64,000 nt of DNA from Mesorhizobium japonicum MAFF 303099 (lineage in GTDB: Bacteria; Pseudomonadota; Alphaproteobacteria; Rhizobiales; Rhizobiaceae). The notes under the pieces are model-generated. The model saw nothing but the letters and a program-made list of their open reading frames with translations. It was not told the DNA's origin and ran no database searches. The position numbers and the translations under genes were made by a program. This document shows, in pieces, positions 16,081 to 26,018 of the stretch (positions are counted from its first letter, which is position 1; each line of letters begins with the position of its first letter). Where the stretch lies: assembly GCF_000009625.1 (NCBI RefSeq), contig NC_002678.2:1674001-1738000 (forward strand), given 5' to 3'.

Positions 16081-16683
16081 CTAGGGCAGCCTTGCCAATC
16101 CGACAAAAGCCAGCAGCGGGGTGATATCGTGGCGGTCGGCGGCTTTGAGCGCCGCGATATAACCCGCCCGCCTTTCGTTCATTTTCTGCAGATCGGAGCC
16201 GGCGGTCCAGTCTATCGGGTCGACCTTGTATATTTTCTCTAACACGGCATCGGCAAGGATGCGGGCATGGCGCCCATTGCCGTTCGCGAACGGATGGACG
16301 AACACGATCCGGTGGTGCAAACGCACCGCAGCCTCTCTGGGCATATAGGTGCCCTTATCCGCCCAGTATCGCGCGTCATCAAGAACCACCCGCAATTGCG
16401 ACCCGATTTGCGCGGGATCGACGCCGATGTTCTTGCCGGTAGTCCTGAAGGCTCCTGCCCAGTTCCAGACCTGGCCAAACAGCTGCCGGTGAAGCTCTAT
16501 GGCAAAGCCGTCGCTGAGAATGTCCTTCCTTCTTGTCCGGGAAAGCCAAAGCAGGCCGGAGGTGATGTTGGCTTGCTCCAGCTCATCGAGTTCGGCCTGC
16601 GTGGTGATGTGCCTGTGCTTCAATCCGGCGAGCTCGTTGGGATCAAGCGGCGTCGCGCCCACGGGATAGTCGGGCGCAATCAT
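16081..16683 (-). CDS. Mobile mystery protein B (Fic-domain AMP-transferase)
   Basis: 200 residues. The Fic core HPFANGNGRHAR at residues 130-141 matches HxFx(D/E)GNGRxxR, with Asn where many Fic proteins have Asp/Glu. ELDELEQANITSGLLWL and WNWAGAFRTTGKNIGV are typical of mobile mystery protein B (TIGR02613), found in pairs with protein A on mobile elements. Fic enzymes transfer AMP or other nucleotides to a target hydroxyl. The start overlaps the upstream HTH gene by 4 bp (ATGA), indicating translational coupling. Confidence 0.85.
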   Translation of the reverse strand: MIAPDYPVGATPLDPNELAGLKHRHITTQAELDELEQANITSGLLWLSRTRRKDILSDGFAIELHRQLFGQVWNWAGAFRTTGKNIGVDPAQIGSQLRVVLDDARYWADKGTYMPREAAVRLHHRIVFVHPFANGNGRHARILADAVLEKIYKVDPIDWTAGSDLQKMNERRAGYIAALKAADRHDITPLLAFVGLARLP

Positions 16684-17138
16684 TTGTCCTGCCAGAAATC
16701 GGACGGCATCTCATACAGCAACTCGCTTGTCAGGCGGCTCACTTCCCGTTCCGTCCGGTTGCCCCCCACTGCCTGGTCTTCGAGGGCCATGTGCTTGCCG
16801 GCGGTGGCGACAATCGCCTTCGCCTTTTTGCGTGCCTGGGCAACGATGATGGCCTCGATCGTCTCGGGCGGAACGAACGCATAGACGAACCGGCACCCCA
16901 TCGCCTCGGCCGTGGCCTGCATCGACTTCAGGGTGACGCCACCTTCGAGTTCGGCCTGCTCCACCTGGGCAATGCGGGCGCGGGTTACGCCCATGCGCCC
17001 TGCAAGCTGCGCGCCCGACATGCCGAGCGCCTTCCGCACAGTTCTTATCCAACCTTCAACAGGTATCTGGATATTCCCGGCTTGGGCGAGATCCACCACT
17101 GCCTGGTATTGTTGGCGAACAGCCTGTTTTAAGCTCAT
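16680..17138 (-). CDS. Mobile mystery protein A (XRE-type HTH)
   Basis: 152 residues from ATG 17138; a TTG at 17159 would add seven. The HTH MSGAQLAGRMGVTRARIAQVEQAE (about 40-65) is followed by GGVTLKSMQATAEAMGCRFVYAFVP, the TIGR02612 signature. It is probably the DNA-binding partner and autoregulator of the Fic protein, analogous to an antitoxin. The upstream region is unusually AT-rich and has two identical 11-bp sites (17148-17224), plausible operators. Confidence 0.82.
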   Translation of the reverse strand: MSLKQAVRQQYQAVVDLAQAGNIQIPVEGWIRTVRKALGMSGAQLAGRMGVTRARIAQVEQAELEGGVTLKSMQATAEAMGCRFVYAFVPPETIEAIIVAQARKKAKAIVATAGKHMALEDQAVGGNRTEREVSRLTSELLYEMPSDFWQDK

Positions 17139-17147
17139 TGTAAACTC

Positions 17148-17224
17148 ATATATTGACAAACGGCTGCATACTGTAAATATTTATGTATACAAATTTTTCT
17201 GAAAAGTCAACTTATATATTGACA
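17148..17224. promoter_or_regulatory. AT-rich promoter with direct repeats ATATATTGACA
   Basis: ATATATTGACA occurs at 17148-17158 and 17214-17224, 66 bp apart, bracketing an AT-rich stretch. On the minus strand the sequence TTGACT (17208-17203) and TATACA downstream resemble -35/-10 elements, though the 15-bp spacer is short. The proximal repeat ends 9 bp before the mystery-protein-A start codon. Autoregulation by the HTH protein is the simplest reading, and is inference. Confidence 0.5.
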
Positions 17225-19029: not shown

Positions 19030-19800
19030 CTACTTCAGCTCCACCCAGACAGGCGCGTGGTCGCTGGCGCCGTCCTCACCGCGCACGTCGCGGTCGATAC
19101 CCGCCCCTTTCAGCCGGCGGGCGAGCGTCTTCGACAGCAAGATGTGGTCGAGCCTGAGGCCCGCATCGCGCGGCCAGCGGTTCCGCCGATAGTCCCAGAA
19201 GGTGTAGAGCGTCTCTTTCGGATAGATTTTTCGCAGCGCGTCGACCCAGCCCTGCTCGATGAGGGCGGCGAAGGCGGCGCGGCTTTCCGGCTGCACCAGC
19301 GCGTTGTCGTCATAGGAGCGCGTGGCATAGATGTCGCGCGGCTCGGGCACGATGTTGTAGTCGCCGGCCAGCACGACCGGCAGGCCGGTGTCGAGAAGCT
19401 GCGCCGCATGCGCCTCCAGCCGCGCGTGCCAGGCAAGCTTGTACTGGAATTTCGGCCCCGGCTGCGGATTGCCGTTCGGCGCATAGAGGCAAGCGATGAC
19501 GATGCCGTCGACCGCCGCCTCGATATAGCGGCTTTGCCGGTCGGCATCGTCGCCGGGCAAGGCATCGCGGGTCAGCACCGGCTCCGCGCCGCGCGCCAGG
19601 ATGGCGACGCCGTTCCATGTCGGCTCGCCCTTCCACACCGCGCCATAGCCGGCATCGGCAAGCGCGGTGCGCGGAAACTGCATGTCGCGCGCCTTGAGTT
19701 CCTGCAGGCAGACGACATCGGGCTTTGCCGCCGCCAGCCAGGCCAGCAGGTTTTCCAGCCGGCTGTTGATGTTGTTGATGTTGAAGGTGGCGAGTTTCAT
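19030..19800 (-). CDS. xth: Exodeoxyribonuclease III
   Basis: 256 residues, family length. MKLATFNINNINSRL and VCLQELKARDMQFP (metal-binding Glu), GDYNIVP (Asn/Asp pair), YTFWDYR, LRLDHILLS and the terminal SDHAPVWVE (catalytic Asp-His) all match the ExoIII/AP endonuclease fold. It cleaves 5' to abasic sites and degrades 3' ends in base-excision repair. Cytoplasmic. It lies 7 bp downstream of the alpha/beta hydrolase on the same strand, likely an operon. Distinguishing XthA1 from XthA2 is not possible here. Confidence 0.93.
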   Translation of the reverse strand: MKLATFNINNINSRLENLLAWLAAAKPDVVCLQELKARDMQFPRTALADAGYGAVWKGEPTWNGVAILARGAEPVLTRDALPGDDADRQSRYIEAAVDGIVIACLYAPNGNPQPGPKFQYKLAWHARLEAHAAQLLDTGLPVVLAGDYNIVPEPRDIYATRSYDDNALVQPESRAAFAALIEQGWVDALRKIYPKETLYTFWDYRRNRWPRDAGLRLDHILLSKTLARRLKGAGIDRDVRGEDGASDHAPVWVELK

Positions 19801-19807
19801 GGTTGGA

Positions 19808-20452
19808 TCAGGAGGCGATCCGGCCTGCCCAAGCCTTCACCGTCTCCGCCAGCGTCTTCAGATGATCGGCGGTGGAGAATCCCGAAATGCCCTTGCGCGG
19901 CTTGAGATCGTGGTCGCCATCCTCCAGCCAGATCACCTCGATCTGGTCCGACAGCCCATACCCCGCCACTTCGTCGCGCGTGCCGAACTCGTCTCGCGTG
20001 CCTTGAAAGATCAGCGTCGGCGTCTTCAGCCCGGTCAAATGTTTGGTGCGCAGCTGGTCGGGCTTTCCAGGCGGATGGAAGGGATAGCCGAGACAGACCA
20101 GCCCTGAAATCTCCCCCTTGGCGAACATCTCGTCCGCAACCATGGAAGCGACACGCCCACCCATCGACTTGCCGCCGATGATCAGCTTCCCGGTCACGCC
20201 CCTGGCCCTGAGGTCAGCGATCGCCTTGATATATTCCGGATTGACCGTCTCGGCGCGCGGCGGCGGCTTGCGGTGGCCGTAACGGCGCGCCGCCATATAG
20301 TGGAATTCGAAGCGCGCGACCTGGACACCGGCCGTGGCCAAAGCCTTGGCGGTTGCGGTCATCGAGGGAGAATCCATCGATGCGCCGGCGCCGTGGGCGA
20401 GCAGGATGGTGACGGGAGCGGTGTCGAAGCCGTCGAAGAGGAAGCTGGTCAT
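19808..20452 (-). CDS. Alpha/beta hydrolase (KANL3/Tex30-like)
   Basis: 214 residues. LAHGAGASMDSPSM is the oxyanion-hole loop, GGKSMGGRVAS the nucleophile elbow with Ser, followed by a late Asp (FQGTRDEFG) and His (EDGDHDLK). This matches the dienelactone-hydrolase-like group that also contains Tex30/KANL3. Cytoplasmic hydrolase; substrate unknown. The start codon is followed downstream by xth at 7 bp. A dispersed inverted repeat lies immediately upstream. Confidence 0.88.
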   Translation of the reverse strand: MTSFLFDGFDTAPVTILLAHGAGASMDSPSMTATAKALATAGVQVARFEFHYMAARRYGHRKPPPRAETVNPEYIKAIADLRARGVTGKLIIGGKSMGGRVASMVADEMFAKGEISGLVCLGYPFHPPGKPDQLRTKHLTGLKTPTLIFQGTRDEFGTRDEVAGYGLSDQIEVIWLEDGDHDLKPRKGISGFSTADHLKTLAETVKAWAGRIAS

Positions 20453-20479: not shown

Positions 20480-20653
20480 CCAATCTCCCCCCTCGTGGGG
20501 GAGATGCCCGGCAGGGCAGAGGGGGGCGCCAAGGAATGCCGGCCTTCAGTCAAATCTCTCCAGGGCGAGACGGCCTGAAATGAGCCGATCCGTTGGCGGG
20601 ACAGCGCCCCCCTCTGTCCTGCCGGACATCTCCCCCACAAGGGGGGAGATCGG
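20480..20653. repeat. Long imperfect inverted repeat (dispersed element pair)
   Basis: The left arm (about 20480-20529) begins CAATCTCCCCCCTCGTGGG; the right arm (about 20604-20653) is its near-exact inverse complement, with a few differences over about 48 bp. Each arm also contains its own small hairpin (CTCCCCC...GGGGGAG). The 74-bp spacer has no gene. The paired arms could fold into a large stem in the intergenic RNA between the hydrolase and the TPR gene. Confidence 0.75.
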
Positions 20654-20681: not shown

Positions 20682-21806
20682 TCACCCCGCCGTCCGAGCC
20701 AGCTGCATATCCACGAACTGCACGCCTTTGGCCGCCACCCCGGCCCATTCGCTATCCGCATCGAGTTCCAGATACCGCACCCAGAGCCGCCGCGCCTCGG
20801 GCAGATTGCCGGCGTCGAATTCCAGCCTGGCCAGGTTGAACACCGGATCGGCATAGCTCTTGTCGAGCGCGATCGCCTTCTGCAAATGCCGCCGCGCGGA
20901 GGCGTCGCGGCCCTGCTCGTTCATCAGCCCGGCGAGATTGAACCAGGCTTCGACGAAGGCCGGATCGAGCTTTATCGCACGCGCATAGTCATGTGCCGCT
21001 TCCGCCGCGTGGCCGCCGGCGCGCAGGCAGTTGGCGCGGTTGAAGGCGGCGATGGCGTCGCTCGGGTCGATGGCGAGGCAGCGCTGGTAGAGCGCGGCGG
21101 CACCATCATGGTCGCCCCCCTCCTCCACCGCTTCGGCCTCGGCAAAAAGCTCTTCCAACGTGTCGTCACCACTGGCGGCGGCGCCCAGATCGAACAGCAA
21201 TTGCCCGTCGAGCTCGCTCTGGCCGCCTTCGAGATAGATCGCGTCGGGGCGGCCGTGCTGCGAGCCGACATTGAGCGATTTGGCGGTGAGCGAGGCCACC
21301 GGGCCTGAGCGGTGCACGGAGCGCGCGATCGCGCCCCAGGTCGCCCCGCCGGCCACCAGCCCGGCATATTTGCGCGCCAGGATCAGGTCGCGGAAGGAGT
21401 AGGGTTCGCAATCATGCTCGAAGGCATCGAACAGGCTGAGCAGGTCGAGGTCGGTGCCCGACAGCCTGGATTGGTCGATCAGCGATTGCCGCGACAGTGA
21501 CGACGCCTCCGGCGCCTTCATCAGGCCGAGCAGGCGCAGAAAACCGTTCTCGCTGATCAGTATGCGCCCGGCCGCGCGCTCGGCGGCGACGCGGCGCTCG
21601 ATCCCGGCATCGCCGTTTTTCGTTAATCCGGCCTTGGCCAACAACGCCCGGCCGAACACGACATGCGTCGTGCGCCTGGTGATGCCGCGCCTCAGCTGGC
21701 CGTGCTGGCGCTCGACCTCCCGCGCGGCGAGCCGCAAGGGAAACGCCGCCAGCGCACCGATGGTACCGAAAACGGCCCCCGGAACCGAAACGGCCGGTGC
21801 CGTCAT
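20682..21806 (-). CDS. BRCT-like/MerR-HTH-like/TPR protein coupled to Ku
   Basis: 374 residues. Residues about 30-95 look like a BRCT domain (RRGITRRTTHVVFGRALL...RILISENGFLRLLGL). Residues about 136-170 (YSFRDLILARKYAGLVAGG...IARSVHRSG) resemble a MerR-type HTH. Residues about 217-350 hold three to four tetratricopeptide repeats (AAFNRANCLRAGGHAAEAA; AWFNLAGLMNEQGRDASA). The start codon overlaps the ku stop by 4 bp (ATGA), so the two are translationally coupled. The architecture suggests a DNA-repair adaptor; this is inference. Cytoplasmic. Confidence 0.75.
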   Translation of the reverse strand: MTAPAVSVPGAVFGTIGALAAFPLRLAAREVERQHGQLRRGITRRTTHVVFGRALLAKAGLTKNGDAGIERRVAAERAAGRILISENGFLRLLGLMKAPEASSLSRQSLIDQSRLSGTDLDLLSLFDAFEHDCEPYSFRDLILARKYAGLVAGGATWGAIARSVHRSGPVASLTAKSLNVGSQHGRPDAIYLEGGQSELDGQLLFDLGAAASGDDTLEELFAEAEAVEEGGDHDGAAALYQRCLAIDPSDAIAAFNRANCLRAGGHAAEAAHDYARAIKLDPAFVEAWFNLAGLMNEQGRDASARRHLQKAIALDKSYADPVFNLARLEFDAGNLPEARRLWVRYLELDADSEWAGVAAKGVQFVDMQLARTAG

Positions 21807-22711
21807 TTCTTGCTCTTGCCGACCGCCTTGAGCAGACTGGCCTTCAACGGATTCTCAGGCGCGCCACCCGCTGCCGCCTTCTTGGCGGCGGGTTTGGCCG
21901 CCACTTCGTCGGCCTTGCTCTTCGACTTGGCCGGCGGCTTCGACTGCGACAGGCTGGCCTTCAGCGCGTCCATCAGATTGATGACATTGCCACGCTCGGG
22001 CGCGGCCGCGATGATCGGCTTGTGGCCCTTCAGCTTCTCGCGGATCATCGCCATCAGCGCGATCTCGTAGCGGTCCTCATAATCCTTCGGATCGAAGGTG
22101 GTTTCCTTCTGCTTGATCAGCGCTTCGGCGAGTTCGAGCATTTCCGGGTCGGGTTTGCCGGCCGGGATATTGCCGAAATATTCAGCTGTGCCACGCACTT
22201 CGTTCGGATTCCTCAACGTACACACGAACATGCCGTTTTCGCGCGCGCCGATCGTCACCACCCGCTCGCGGCTGGACAGGACCAGCCGGGCGATCGCCAG
22301 CTTGCCGGATTTGCGCATGGCTTCGCGCAGCACGGCGAAGGTTTCCTCGGCCATCGCGCCATCCGGCGCCAGGTAATAGGGCGCGTCCTGGTAGATGACA
22401 TCGACCTCGCCCTCGTCGACGAAGGCCTCGATGTTCATCGTATGGTTGGATTCGATACGCACCGTGTCGAGGTCGGCATCATCGATGATGATGTACTGCT
22501 TGTCCTCATACTCGTAGCCCTTGACCAGGTCCGAGCGCTCGACGAGCCCGAGTTCGGGATCGACCGGCTTCATGTTGATGCGGTTATGGGTCTTCTTGTG
22601 CAGCTGATTGAACGAGATGCGCTCGCTGGTCGTCGTCGCCGGATAGAGCCGGACCGGACAGCTGACGAGGCTGAGCTTGAGATAACCCTTCCAACTTGCC
22701 CTGGGCGCCAT
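21803..22711 (-). CDS. ku: Ku protein, non-homologous end joining
   Basis: 302 residues. MAPRASWKGYLKLSLVSCPVRLYPA is the bacterial Ku N-terminus; the central ring domain includes VKGYEYEDKQYIIIDDADLD and YYLAPDGAMAEETFAVLREAM. After about residue 255 comes a Lys/Ala-rich tail (KPPAKSKSKADEVAAKPAAKK) that in homologues binds DNA and contacts LigD. Ku forms a dimeric ring on double-strand ends and recruits LigD. ligD lies 800 bp upstream on the same strand with a GIY-YIG gene between. Confidence 0.95.
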   Translation of the reverse strand: MAPRASWKGYLKLSLVSCPVRLYPATTTSERISFNQLHKKTHNRINMKPVDPELGLVERSDLVKGYEYEDKQYIIIDDADLDTVRIESNHTMNIEAFVDEGEVDVIYQDAPYYLAPDGAMAEETFAVLREAMRKSGKLAIARLVLSSRERVVTIGARENGMFVCTLRNPNEVRGTAEYFGNIPAGKPDPEMLELAEALIKQKETTFDPKDYEDRYEIALMAMIREKLKGHKPIIAAAPERGNVINLMDALKASLSQSKPPAKSKSKADEVAAKPAAKKAAAGGAPENPLKASLLKAVGKSKK

Positions 22712-23114: not shown

Positions 23115-23402
23115 TCACCATCCAGTTCCGCGAAACAGTTCGAACCAGTCTGGATTCGCCTTTTCGATCAGGTCGATCTTCCATTGGCGCAGCCGGCGCT
23201 TCAACGATTTCTCGCGCTGGATGGCGTCGGTGATGTCGAAGTATTCCTCATACCAGACCAGTCGTTGCACACCGTATTGGCTGGTGAAGCGCGAGCCTTC
23301 GCCTGACTTGTGCTCGGGCATACGGCGGCCAAGGTCGTTGGTCACCCCGATGTAGATCGTGCCGCGTTTCTGACTCGCGGTCATGTAGACGTAGCCGGTC
23401 AT
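23115..23402 (-). CDS. GIY-YIG nuclease-domain protein
   Basis: 95 residues. GYVYMTASQKRGTIYIGVTN carries the two signature strands (GIY as VYM, YIG intact), followed by RRMPEHKSGEGSRFT, then LVWYEEYFDITDAIQREKSLKR with the catalytic Glu and WKIDLIEKANPDW. This is the small single-domain (YhbQ/UPF0213-like) form. Such proteins may cut DNA, but cellular roles are unknown. It lies between repeat copies B and C, which share an 18-bp direct repeat on either side. Confidence 0.88.
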   Translation of the reverse strand: MTGYVYMTASQKRGTIYIGVTNDLGRRMPEHKSGEGSRFTSQYGVQRLVWYEEYFDITDAIQREKSLKRRLRQWKIDLIEKANPDWFELFRGTGW

Positions 23403-23465: not shown

Positions 23466-23529
23466 CGTCACGGCATGGATCCTAGGGTCTACGCGTCGCT
23501 TCGCTCCTTGCTTCGCCTAGGATGACGAA
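23466..23529. repeat. Dispersed palindromic repeat, copy C, overlapping the ligD 3' end
   Basis: CGTCACGGCATGGATCCT (23466-23483) repeats 23060-23077 exactly. The remainder to 23529 is an inverted, slightly diverged copy of 22940-22995 (GGGTCTACGCGTCGC... to GGATGACGAA). On the minus strand its first bases, TCGTCATCCTAG, read as the last three codons plus stop of ligD. Confidence 0.85.
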
Positions 23530-26018
23530 AGATAGGTAGGCAAATCCCGGGCAAAGTCCTCGATATCTGCCCAGGGATCACCCGACGTCTCCAGCAGCCC
23601 CGGCAGCGACGAATAGTTCAGGTCCTGCGGCGCATCGATCGCCTCCAGATCGCTCCAGCTCACCGGGGTCGAAGCCGGCAAATTGGTGCGGGCGCGCAGC
23701 GAATAGGGCGCCGCGGAGGTGTGGCCGCGGGCGTTGCGGTGATAGTCGATGAAGATACGCTTCTTGCGGTTTTCCTTGCCCATGGTGGTGGTGAATGTGT
23801 CGGGCGCGGTCGCCGCCAGATGCGTGGAGATGGCGCTGGTCGCCTGGTGCAGCTTCTTCCAGTTCTGCTTTGACGTCACCGGCACGGTGATGTGGATGCC
23901 GCTGCCTCCTGACGTCTTGGCGAACGGCACCAGCCCCAGCCCCTCGAGCTCGCCCTTGATGTGGACGGCGGCTTCCACCACTTCGCGCCAGGAAATCCCC
24001 GCGCCCGGATCGAGGTCGAAGACGATCTGATCGGGCTTGTCGAGGCTGGTGCGGTGCGTGCCCCAGGTGTGGAACTCGACGACGCCGAACTGCGCCAGAG
24101 CCAGATAGCCTTTTGCGCCCTCGACCGAGAGATAGGATTTGGTCTCGCCCTCGGAATTGGTCGCCTGGAACGTTACCACCGAAGGCGGCATGCCGGTGAA
24201 GGCGTGGCGCTGGAAGAAGCAATCTTTCGGCAGGCCGGTCGGGCAGCGCACCAGCGACACCGGGCGGCCAAGGATGTGCGGCAGCATGAAGTCGCCGACC
24301 AGCGCGTAATAGACGGCGATGTCGAGTTTGGTCGGACCCGTCTTGCCGAACAGCCGCCGCTCCGGATTGGTCACCCAGATGGTGGCGAGATCCGCCTCCG
24401 AGATCAGCCGCTTGCGCTTGGCCGAGACCGGCGTCGACAGGCCGACATCCCTGAGACCGCGAAACACGCCATGGCGCAACGCATTGTCCGCCGTGCGGTT
24501 GGCGTAATGGATGCGCGCCGAAAACAGCGGCTTGACCCAGTGCATCTCGCGCATGATCTCGCGCGGCACGCCTTCCGGCGCCGTGGCGCCCGATGTCAGC
24601 GGCTCCAGCCGGGCGAGCAGGTCGGCTGCCGTCGCGGCATCGAAGCCGGTGCCGACCTTGCCGCGATAGTGCAGCTCGCCTTCCTCCCACTCGGCCATGC
24701 CGAGTGCCGCCAGCCCTTCCGCCGCGTCCGAAATCGTGTAACCCGCGATGACGAAATCGTCCTTCTGCAGCGCCTTGCACTTGGTCCAGCTCTTGGTGCG
24801 GCCGCTCTGGTAGATCGCGCTGGCGCGCTTGGAGATGACGCCTTCGAGCCCGAGCTCCGTCGCCTGGTCGTACAGCCCCTGCCCTGAGCCCTCGACATGG
24901 TCGGAGAACTGGATGGCGGAATTCGCCCCGAGCCCGCCAAGCAGCTCGGCCAACAGCGCCTTGCGCCGGATCAGCGGTGCCTTCAGCAAATCCCAGCCGT
25001 CGAGATGCAGGAGGTCGAAGGCATAGAAATGCAGCTTGCTGCCGGCGCCCTCGGCCAGCGCATCCTGCAGCAGCGCGAAGCGGCTGATGCCCTTGGCGTC
25101 GAGCACGACGATCTCGCCGTCGATGATCGCCTCGCGGCAGGGCAGTTTGGCGAAGGCATGCGGCAGGTCGCCATAGCGCTTCGTCCAGTCGATGCCGCCG
25201 CGGGTGATCAGCCGCACCTGCCCGTCGGACAGATGCGCCATGGTGCGGTAGCCATCGAATTTGATCTCGTGCAGCCAGAGTTCGTTGGTGTTCTCGGCGG
25301 GGCCTTCGCCGCCCGGCGGCCTCAGCGCCTGCGTTGCCAGCTGCGGCTCGATGCGGCTGAGCGCCGGCGCCTTCACCGCGCCCGGCAGTTCGCCGGGCTT
25401 TAGGGAACCCGGCTTTGGCGCGGACCTGGCCGCCGGTTTCGCGGCGGCCGCCAGTTCCTCGATAAGCAATCCGGACTTCACGCTTTCCGGCCGCGCTTCG
25501 AGGATGTCCAGCGCCGTGTCGGCGGCGAGGTCGCGCTCCTTGAACAGCAGCCAGTTCTTCTTGTTCTCGTCCTCGCCAGGCTTGGGCTTCAGGCGGGTCA
25601 GCATCCAGCCGCCATTGAGCTTTTCTCCGGCGAGGCGAAACTTGAAAGCGCCGGTGCGCAGGCTCTTCTCGACATCGTCCATCGGCGCCCAGGTGCCGGT
25701 GTCCCAGACGATCATCGGCCCGCCGCCATATTCACCCTCGGGAATGACGCCCTCGAAATCGATATATTCGAGCGGATGGTCCTCGGTCTCGACCGCCAGC
25801 CTCTTGTCGGCTGGATTGAGCGAGGGCCCGCGCGGCACTGCCCAGCTCTTCAACACGTCGCCGACCTGCAGGCGCAGATCGTAGTGGTCCGCCGTCGCGT
25901 GGTGCTTGTGGACGACAAAGCGGTTGCCGTCGCCGCTGATCAGCCCGCCGGCCGGTTCCGGCGTTTTGGAGAATTCGCGCTTGGCGCGATAGGTCTTGAG
26001 TTTGGCGGGAGCAGGCAT
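23517..26018 (-). CDS. ligD: Multidomain DNA ligase D (phosphoesterase-ligase-polymerase)
   Basis: 833 residues in the order PE, ligase, polymerase. The 3'-phosphoesterase (about 20-180) has VVHKHHATADHYDLRLQ and PEGEYGGGP. The ATP-dependent ligase (about 220-530) has EIKFDGYR with the adenylated Lys253, and DGEIVVLD. The AEP/primase-like polymerase (about 550-833) has VFDLDPG (metal Asp668/Asp670) and KTSGGSGIHITVPV. It works with Ku to process and seal double-strand breaks. The last codons (SSS-stop) lie inside dispersed repeat copy C. Confidence 0.95.
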   Translation of the reverse strand: MPAPAKLKTYRAKREFSKTPEPAGGLISGDGNRFVVHKHHATADHYDLRLQVGDVLKSWAVPRGPSLNPADKRLAVETEDHPLEYIDFEGVIPEGEYGGGPMIVWDTGTWAPMDDVEKSLRTGAFKFRLAGEKLNGGWMLTRLKPKPGEDENKKNWLLFKERDLAADTALDILEARPESVKSGLLIEELAAAAKPAARSAPKPGSLKPGELPGAVKAPALSRIEPQLATQALRPPGGEGPAENTNELWLHEIKFDGYRTMAHLSDGQVRLITRGGIDWTKRYGDLPHAFAKLPCREAIIDGEIVVLDAKGISRFALLQDALAEGAGSKLHFYAFDLLHLDGWDLLKAPLIRRKALLAELLGGLGANSAIQFSDHVEGSGQGLYDQATELGLEGVISKRASAIYQSGRTKSWTKCKALQKDDFVIAGYTISDAAEGLAALGMAEWEEGELHYRGKVGTGFDAATAADLLARLEPLTSGATAPEGVPREIMREMHWVKPLFSARIHYANRTADNALRHGVFRGLRDVGLSTPVSAKRKRLISEADLATIWVTNPERRLFGKTGPTKLDIAVYYALVGDFMLPHILGRPVSLVRCPTGLPKDCFFQRHAFTGMPPSVVTFQATNSEGETKSYLSVEGAKGYLALAQFGVVEFHTWGTHRTSLDKPDQIVFDLDPGAGISWREVVEAAVHIKGELEGLGLVPFAKTSGGSGIHITVPVTSKQNWKKLHQATSAISTHLAATAPDTFTTTMGKENRKKRIFIDYHRNARGHTSAAPYSLRARTNLPASTPVSWSDLEAIDAPQDLNYSSLPGLLETSGDPWADIEDFARDLPTYLSSS

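Follow-up and report, generated by a model that had tools for sequence, protein, structure and literature searches.

A protein encoded directly after ku, with BRCT, helix-turn-helix and tetratricopeptide repeat domains, is a candidate accessory component of bacterial non-homologous end joining

In a 64,000-nucleotide stretch of the Mesorhizobium japonicum MAFF 303099 genome (NC_002678.2, positions 1,674,001 to 1,738,000 of the forward strand; here called the window), the gene that directly follows ku was found to encode a conserved protein combining a BRCT domain, a degenerate MerR-type helix-turn-helix (HTH) and tetratricopeptide repeats (TPRs). Ku takes hold of DNA at breaks, and genome context and domain content suggest that this protein is probably dedicated to it, acting beside Ku and LigD as a third, accessory part of bacterial non-homologous end joining (NHEJ); they thereby support the proposal of an initial annotation of the window that it might be an accessory NHEJ factor. 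Neither of the two outcomes that the initial annotation had named as refuting was obtained, since BRCT and HTH both match in family profiles and the gene keeps its place by ku in related genomes. More tentatively, we propose that it represents a widespread Ku-dedicated adaptor, in which the TPR groove would clasp the disordered tail of Ku while an interchangeable module reads the DNA end. The partner gene (374 codons, positions 20682..21806, minus strand; linked to ku and detected as an open reading frame) overlaps ku (302 codons, 21803..22711, minus strand; Pfam Ku, E=9.9e-45; NCBIfam Ku_bact) by 4 bp, the start of the partner lying inside the ku stop in the sequence ATGA (21803..21806, minus strand), exactly as first annotated. 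The ratio of nonsynonymous to synonymous substitution rates (dN/dS) of the partner was 0.12-0.15 in five comparisons within Mesorhizobium, which argues that it is a real, conserved protein.

The linkage of the partner gene with ku was constant. Across 90 loci from two sets of relatives (30 in one, counting that of the window, and 60 in the other; a species may occur in both), ku was directly upstream of the partner gene in every case, and the 3' end of ku read ATGA at 48, GTGA at 40 and CTGA at 2. From the ATGA or GTGA overlap (88/90) it is fair to infer that ku and the partner are translationally coupled at most of these loci. Within the genus the partner was present in 34 of 37 genomes, with matches to TPRs only in G006, G013 and G024, and the matches listed for 24 sampled genomes from other families of the same order were likewise to TPRs only. 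A search of 398 genomes with the full-length profile was swamped by unrelated TPR proteins and was used for near members only. A profile of the N-terminal part matched 12 of 385 genomes in an even sample of Alphaproteobacteria; 10 were true members (M. japonicum itself among them), and two hits, G331 and G235, were rejected as DnaQ-type exonucleases with a BRCT-like C-terminal part. All 10 members adjoined ku, with Ku present in just 55 of the 385 genomes. Scanning 57 further ku neighbourhoods by profile gave three more, divergent members beside ku (G207, G074 and G284) and a fourth after ku that was cut by a contig end (G131), bringing the complete members beside ku in this sample to 13/13 and the Ku-bearing genomes with a partner to 13 or 14 of 55. 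The position of ligD was less regular. It lay upstream in most loci, on the downstream side in G375 and G182, and in divergent orientation in G207 and G074; none was detected within the 15-kb stretch of G246. The ku-partner pair was constant throughout.

The host genome (7.6 Mb) has four ku places, and the partner was found at one only, the window locus. On plasmids, the BRCT-bearing form was seen in 87 records from Sinorhizobium, Ensifer and Pararhizobium, with ku directly before the gene in both of the two examined. One copy is on pSymB of the laboratory strain Sinorhizobium meliloti 1021 (NC_003078.1, 1490711-1491793), a replicon with three Ku places by tblastn; the pSymB ku beside the partner is presumably sku2. 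Two loci showed unusual gene structures. In genome G011 (C1, 6146362-6147458) the member was split over two frames (residues 4-232 and 229-374), and the gene may be broken. In genome G396, a 718-codon frame upstream of the partner gene (L105, 7767-9920, minus strand) matched LigD residues 6-453 and then Ku residues 34-265, and may be a fusion of LigD with Ku that lacks the polymerase domain.

Conservation beside ku extended from Rhizobiales, the order in which the initial annotation had proposed to look, to other Alphaproteobacteria and to Burkholderiales, where a form without the BRCT was found. The profile A4 matched two frames of genome G667 (282 and 290 codons), both after ku, over the HTH half only, and these two frames were used as queries together with an HTH-only profile (A6) to find this branch. 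Among 130 genomes of the order of G667 there were 12 strong matches (E<=2.4e-36) in 11 genomes, the next match standing at E=1.2e-5; by coordinates, all 12 lay 276-434 bases after a Ku match on the same strand. Weak HTH matches (E>=1.2e-5) in short frames of 105-178 codons were taken as ordinary MerR proteins and were not counted. Ku was present in 23 of the 130 genomes, 11 of these with the partner. This, together with the 13 or 14 of 55 in Alphaproteobacteria, argues that the partner is accessory and not core. On plasmids, 33 records had a match covering at least 80%, all of them from genera of Burkholderiales; with Ku positions compared by coordinates (Caballeronia zhejiangensis included), 31 were beside ku, one was beside it across the start of a circular record (CP086300, by coordinates) and one was an orphan. 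The orphan (L201, 3959-4699, plus strand), on a 2.4-Mb replicon of Paraburkholderia sp. PGU19, had no ku within 4 kb, had lost its last repeats and was near a transposase-like frame (by eye), and looks like a decaying remnant. Existing record names for the family were 'tetratricopeptide repeat protein', 'TPR repeat-containing protein', 'helix-turn-helix domain-containing protein' and 'MerR family transcriptional regulator'. Identity between the two forms is only about 25%, yet their position relative to ku is the same, and on sequence comparison the BRCT is an optional part of the family.

The N-terminal part of the partner (21522..21779, minus strand, about residues 10-95) is a BRCT domain by family profile and by predicted fold, in agreement with what the initial annotation had read by eye. 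The single window protein gave no Pfam BRCT or MerR match at E<=1, the TPRs alone being clear, and single-sequence searches of Pfam, NCBIfam and the PDB likewise returned TPRs only. Both of the other domains emerged at family level, so single-sequence searches alone would have wrongly rejected them. Of 16 near members, 4 matched Pfam BRCT, the best at E=0.0059, as did 6 of 9 sequences in a second set (E 0.0014-0.059), all under the Pfam cut-off, and a profile of 22 members matched the DNA-binding BRCTs of human RFC1 and of LigA among PDB chains (E 1.8e-7 to 1.3e-6). For the full model, the rows that Foldseek displayed were TPR proteins, so residues 1-208 were predicted separately; the predicted fold of the N-terminal part agreed with BRCT, and the RFC1 and LigA domains were nearest by fold too. 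These nearest solved relatives share the invariant glycine of the family but carry their BRCT in a clamp loader or a ligase, whereas that of the partner is at the N-terminus of an HTH-TPR protein. The mean net charge of the domain was +8.2. We take the 5'-phosphate pocket of the RFC1 type to consist of T, G and K, with lysine K458 of RFC1 presumably binding the 5' phosphate (no open paper naming K458 was found). At the corresponding positions of the 22 members, the glycine was present in all and a basic residue (R72, at the place of the RFC1 lysine) in 18, and the threonine that stands beside the invariant glycine in RFC1 was replaced in all but one. The DnaQ-type exonucleases with a C-terminal part resembling the family BRCT lie in L100 (1519-2379, minus strand) and L101 (895-1749, plus strand), Pfam BRCT being over its cut-off in the L101 exonuclease only.

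The middle of the partner (21183..21497, minus strand, about residues 104-208), comprising the HTH, a beta-hairpin and a closing GQ motif, is by descent a degenerate MerR-type HTH, as comparison with the BRCT-less relatives demonstrates. Pfam MerR_1 matched all 12 of these relatives (best E=8.4e-10) and, among BRCT-bearing members, L107 only (E=0.01). When the HTH alignments of the two branches, with BRCT and TPR removed, were compared by hhalign, they matched at a probability of 98.1 (E=7e-14) over 106 columns that take in the beta-hairpin and GQ motif, while a control comparison of BRCT with HTH gave a probability of 0.2. The MerR-type HTH of the initial annotation was thus recovered through relatives, with no direct hit in the window protein. 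Net charge of this region was -3.0 in the BRCT-bearing branch and +6.7 in the BRCT-less branch. MerR regulators carry a long dimerisation helix after the HTH; in our models a beta-hairpin, and no long helix, was predicted between HTH and TPR, with residues 193-214 at pLDDT <50. No MerR structure was among the VIA-align rows, which according to the tool is evidence neither way. In one locus of genome G284 (L170, 1460-2143, plus strand) a BRCT was joined straight to TPRs after a Ku match, through either a real deletion or an assembly fault.

An HTH of this family raises the possibility that the partner regulates transcription of its own ku (and ligD) in the manner of MerR proteins, adjusting NHEJ expression to a partner or to damage sensed by its TPRs and BRCT. 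We regard this main rival as unlikely. Regulators are often located in the operon under their control, one BRCT-less member is annotated as a MerR family regulator, and such a role would be possible above all in Burkholderiales, where the MerR_1 match is general and the basic HTH looks functional. Against it, the loci compared have the partner gene after ku, neither before nor divergent from it, the HTH of Alphaproteobacteria is acidic and degenerate, the predicted hairpin and TPRs follow where a dimerisation helix would be expected, and a BRCT is unusual for such a protein; the family, unlike MerR regulators at large, is tied to ku.

The last 158 residues of the partner (20688..21161, minus strand, about residues 216-373) consist of TPRs, with Pfam TPR_2 matching four stretches of the window protein (E=5.7e-17) and the helices of the model in register. 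Their C-terminal location was correctly given in the initial annotation, although they make up nearer two fifths of the protein than the third it had stated; the structure prediction it had called for supports both the BRCT fold and the TPRs. Most blocks of the TPR part had pLDDT >95 in the model, and the pTM of the whole was 0.51, making the relative placement of the domains uncertain. The TPR part was common to every intact member seen, and was acidic in both branches (net charge -10.9 and -10.2). An asparagine occupied the same position in three successive repeats (residues 256, 290 and 324), in 20/20, 19/20 and 19/20 members of the BRCT-bearing branch and in 8/12, 12/12 and 11/12 of the BRCT-less branch. 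The TPRs of O-GlcNAc transferase (OGT), in which an asparagine ladder holds extended peptides, were among the best matches in the PDB by sequence and by fold, with a similar asparagine register. The partner differs from OGT in having about four repeats and no enzyme domain, and since designed consensus TPRs matched equally well, the resemblance is a general TPR likeness.

The likeliest peptide for such a groove would be the disordered basic C-terminal tail of Ku (about 21806-21949, minus strand, within ku). Available portions of a study of Bacillus Ku report that LigD is recruited by a minimal C-terminal region and that threading is limited by an extended one (PMC13201618). A protein bound to the Ku tail could therefore govern how Ku is loaded, how ends are brought into synapsis, or how Ku hands over or is released. 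Ku tails were basic in all groups (median net charge +9 and +10 in the partnered groups, +8 in unpartnered Kus). A motif, [KR]PxAxS, was present in the tails of 27/29 partnered alphaproteobacterial Kus, 1/22 Burkholderiales Kus and 1/59 unpartnered Kus; it was picked after viewing the tails and is confounded with descent, which makes it a lead and not evidence.

Holding the Ku tail would also suit a chaperone specific to Ku, or a factor for its assembly and stability, that acts while Ku folds or dimerises and not at the break. The overlapping genes and the TPR groove would fit this, TPR proteins often being co-chaperones, but the basic BRCT of RFC1/LigA type suggests contact with DNA and most alphaproteobacterial ku genes do without the partner; we consider this explanation improbable.

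The history of the pair was examined in a tree of 110 Ku cores with the tails removed. These were drawn from 195 Ku rows after all but four of loci L001-L080, L087, L089, duplicates and matches of fewer than 200 columns were dropped; L142, where the contig ends inside the partner, and L170 were marked as partnered by hand. The label 'partnered' needed 6 changes on this tree, and well-supported branches forced at least 4. Partnered alphaproteobacterial Kus fell into one large group and several single lines, while the Kus of Burkholderiales formed one group, the tree holding no unpartnered Burkholderiales Kus. The ku-partner pair is thus found in several deep lines of Ku, which either ancient inheritance followed by losses or transfer of the two genes together would explain; the tree cannot tell between them.

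That the gene merely travels with the NHEJ cassette, by inheritance or transfer, and has no role in end joining is a very remote prospect: near relatives do keep the whole row of ligD, ku, partner, hydrolase and xthA (the hydrolase in most near loci), so that inherited synteny is real there, and many copies are plasmid-borne, but divergent loci shuffle or lose the other neighbours while the ku-partner pair persists, the gene is under purifying selection, and the position is the same for two forms of such low identity. Carriage with a whole xthA cassette in particular is disfavoured by nine divergent loci that gave no hydrolase or xthA match (E<=1e-4). Membership of a defence system was rejected, as PADLOC gave weak, partial matches only (E 0.0019 for the partner and 0.0014 for a BRCT-less relative) and none for Ku.

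Returning to a dedicated Ku partner as the preferred reading, its action can be outlined as follows. The protein would be made with Ku and bind it, the acidic TPR groove, with its OGT-like row of asparagines, clasping an extended basic peptide. The N-terminal part may touch the DNA end, through a basic BRCT in Alphaproteobacteria and a basic HTH in Burkholderiales, and the BRCT may have taken this contact over from the HTH; that these are interchangeable DNA-contact modules, of RFC1/LigA type in the one class and HTH type in the other, is a plausible but still speculative part of the adaptor proposal. The partner might then keep Ku at the end or restrict it there, assist in the alignment of two ends, pass them on to LigD or free Ku from the DNA. 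The same Bacillus study, in the portions available, describes Ku as staying bound after repair, which suggests a need for its removal (PMC13201618).

Several observations weigh against this reading. Ku and LigD are described as a sufficient two-component machine in mycobacteria, and many Ku-bearing genomes had no partner beside ku: about 41 of 55 in Alphaproteobacteria and 12 of 23 in the order of G667. Among plasmid matches from outside Burkholderiales, the Ku of Gemmatirosa was the closest to the Cupriavidus-type Ku; its ku, the sole non-Pseudomonadota ku locus examined, was also followed by no partner, a DUF72-like frame (by eye) being there instead. The threonine of the RFC1 phosphate pocket was retained in only 1 of 22 members, and L170, from a fragmented draft genome, has BRCT and TPR with no HTH. 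The charge of the Ku tail is no sign of specific binding, because unpartnered Kus are basic as well, and on the Ku tree the [KR]PxAxS motif had two agreeing and no opposing pairs among four independent ones, which is not significant.

The family was called undescribed in the initial annotation, and no description of it was found among the papers listed in searches of the open-licence literature of PubMed Central, although subscription papers could hold one. A term search of the available text of a 2020 comparative study of bacterial NHEJ found neither 'tetratricopeptide' nor 'BRCT' (PMC7719229), and a Rhizobium etli study, in the part available, states that, for the repair of breaks, sku2 seems to matter more than the other ku genes of S. 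meliloti (PMC10932983). Bacterial NHEJ has been described as Ku plus LigD; the partner shares operons with ku and usually ligD, but is an extra conserved protein coupled to ku. BRCT proteins also work with Ku in eukaryotic NHEJ (ligase IV and polymerases lambda and mu; polymerase BRCTs are treated in the accessible part of PMC9226535), a likeness in concept only, since the architecture of the partner differs, it has no enzyme domain and there is no sign that the two arrangements descend from a common one. The analysis supports the partner as a probable new member of a known pathway, with known kinds of parts newly combined and a conserved place. Following ku in two proteobacterial classes, with a BRCT of DNA-end type and TPRs of peptide-binding type, the partner is a concrete candidate for a missing factor and, if the proposal is true, would be a functional bacterial counterpart of the accessory factors that bridge ends in eukaryotic NHEJ. 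For NHEJ-based bacterial genome editing, a Ku-LigD pair transferred alone would presumably be without its partner.

The order of genes on the minus strand of the window was ligD, a small GIY-YIG gene, ku, the partner, a hydrolase gene and an exodeoxyribonuclease III gene. ligD (833 codons, 23517..26018, minus strand, in the same operon direction) was identified by Pfam LigD_Prim-Pol, LigD_N and ligase domains and by NCBIfam NHEJ_ligase_prk. The GIY-YIG endonuclease-like gene between ligD and ku (23115-23402, minus strand; Pfam) had a relative in at least 9 of the 90 loci, many of which are short, and once on the opposite strand (L050); with relatives in few loci and this switch of strand, it looks like a recent, mobile insertion. 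Next downstream of the partner are the alpha/beta hydrolase gene (19808..20452, minus strand; Pfam Abhydrolase_11) and xthA (19030..19800, minus strand; NCBIfam xth), both kept in near relatives only. Between the partner and hydrolase genes, two copies of a 24-base G+C-rich palindromic motif were found in opposite orientation (20483-20506 and 20627-20650); none were expected in shuffled sequence, and the motif resembles a repetitive extragenic palindrome. Further along, at 16081-17159 on the minus strand, was a 'mobile mystery protein' A/B pair, an XRE-type regulator and a Fic-domain protein (NCBIfam TIGR02612 and TIGR02613), which is likely toxin-antitoxin like and which PADLOC places near PDC-S04 and SoFic.

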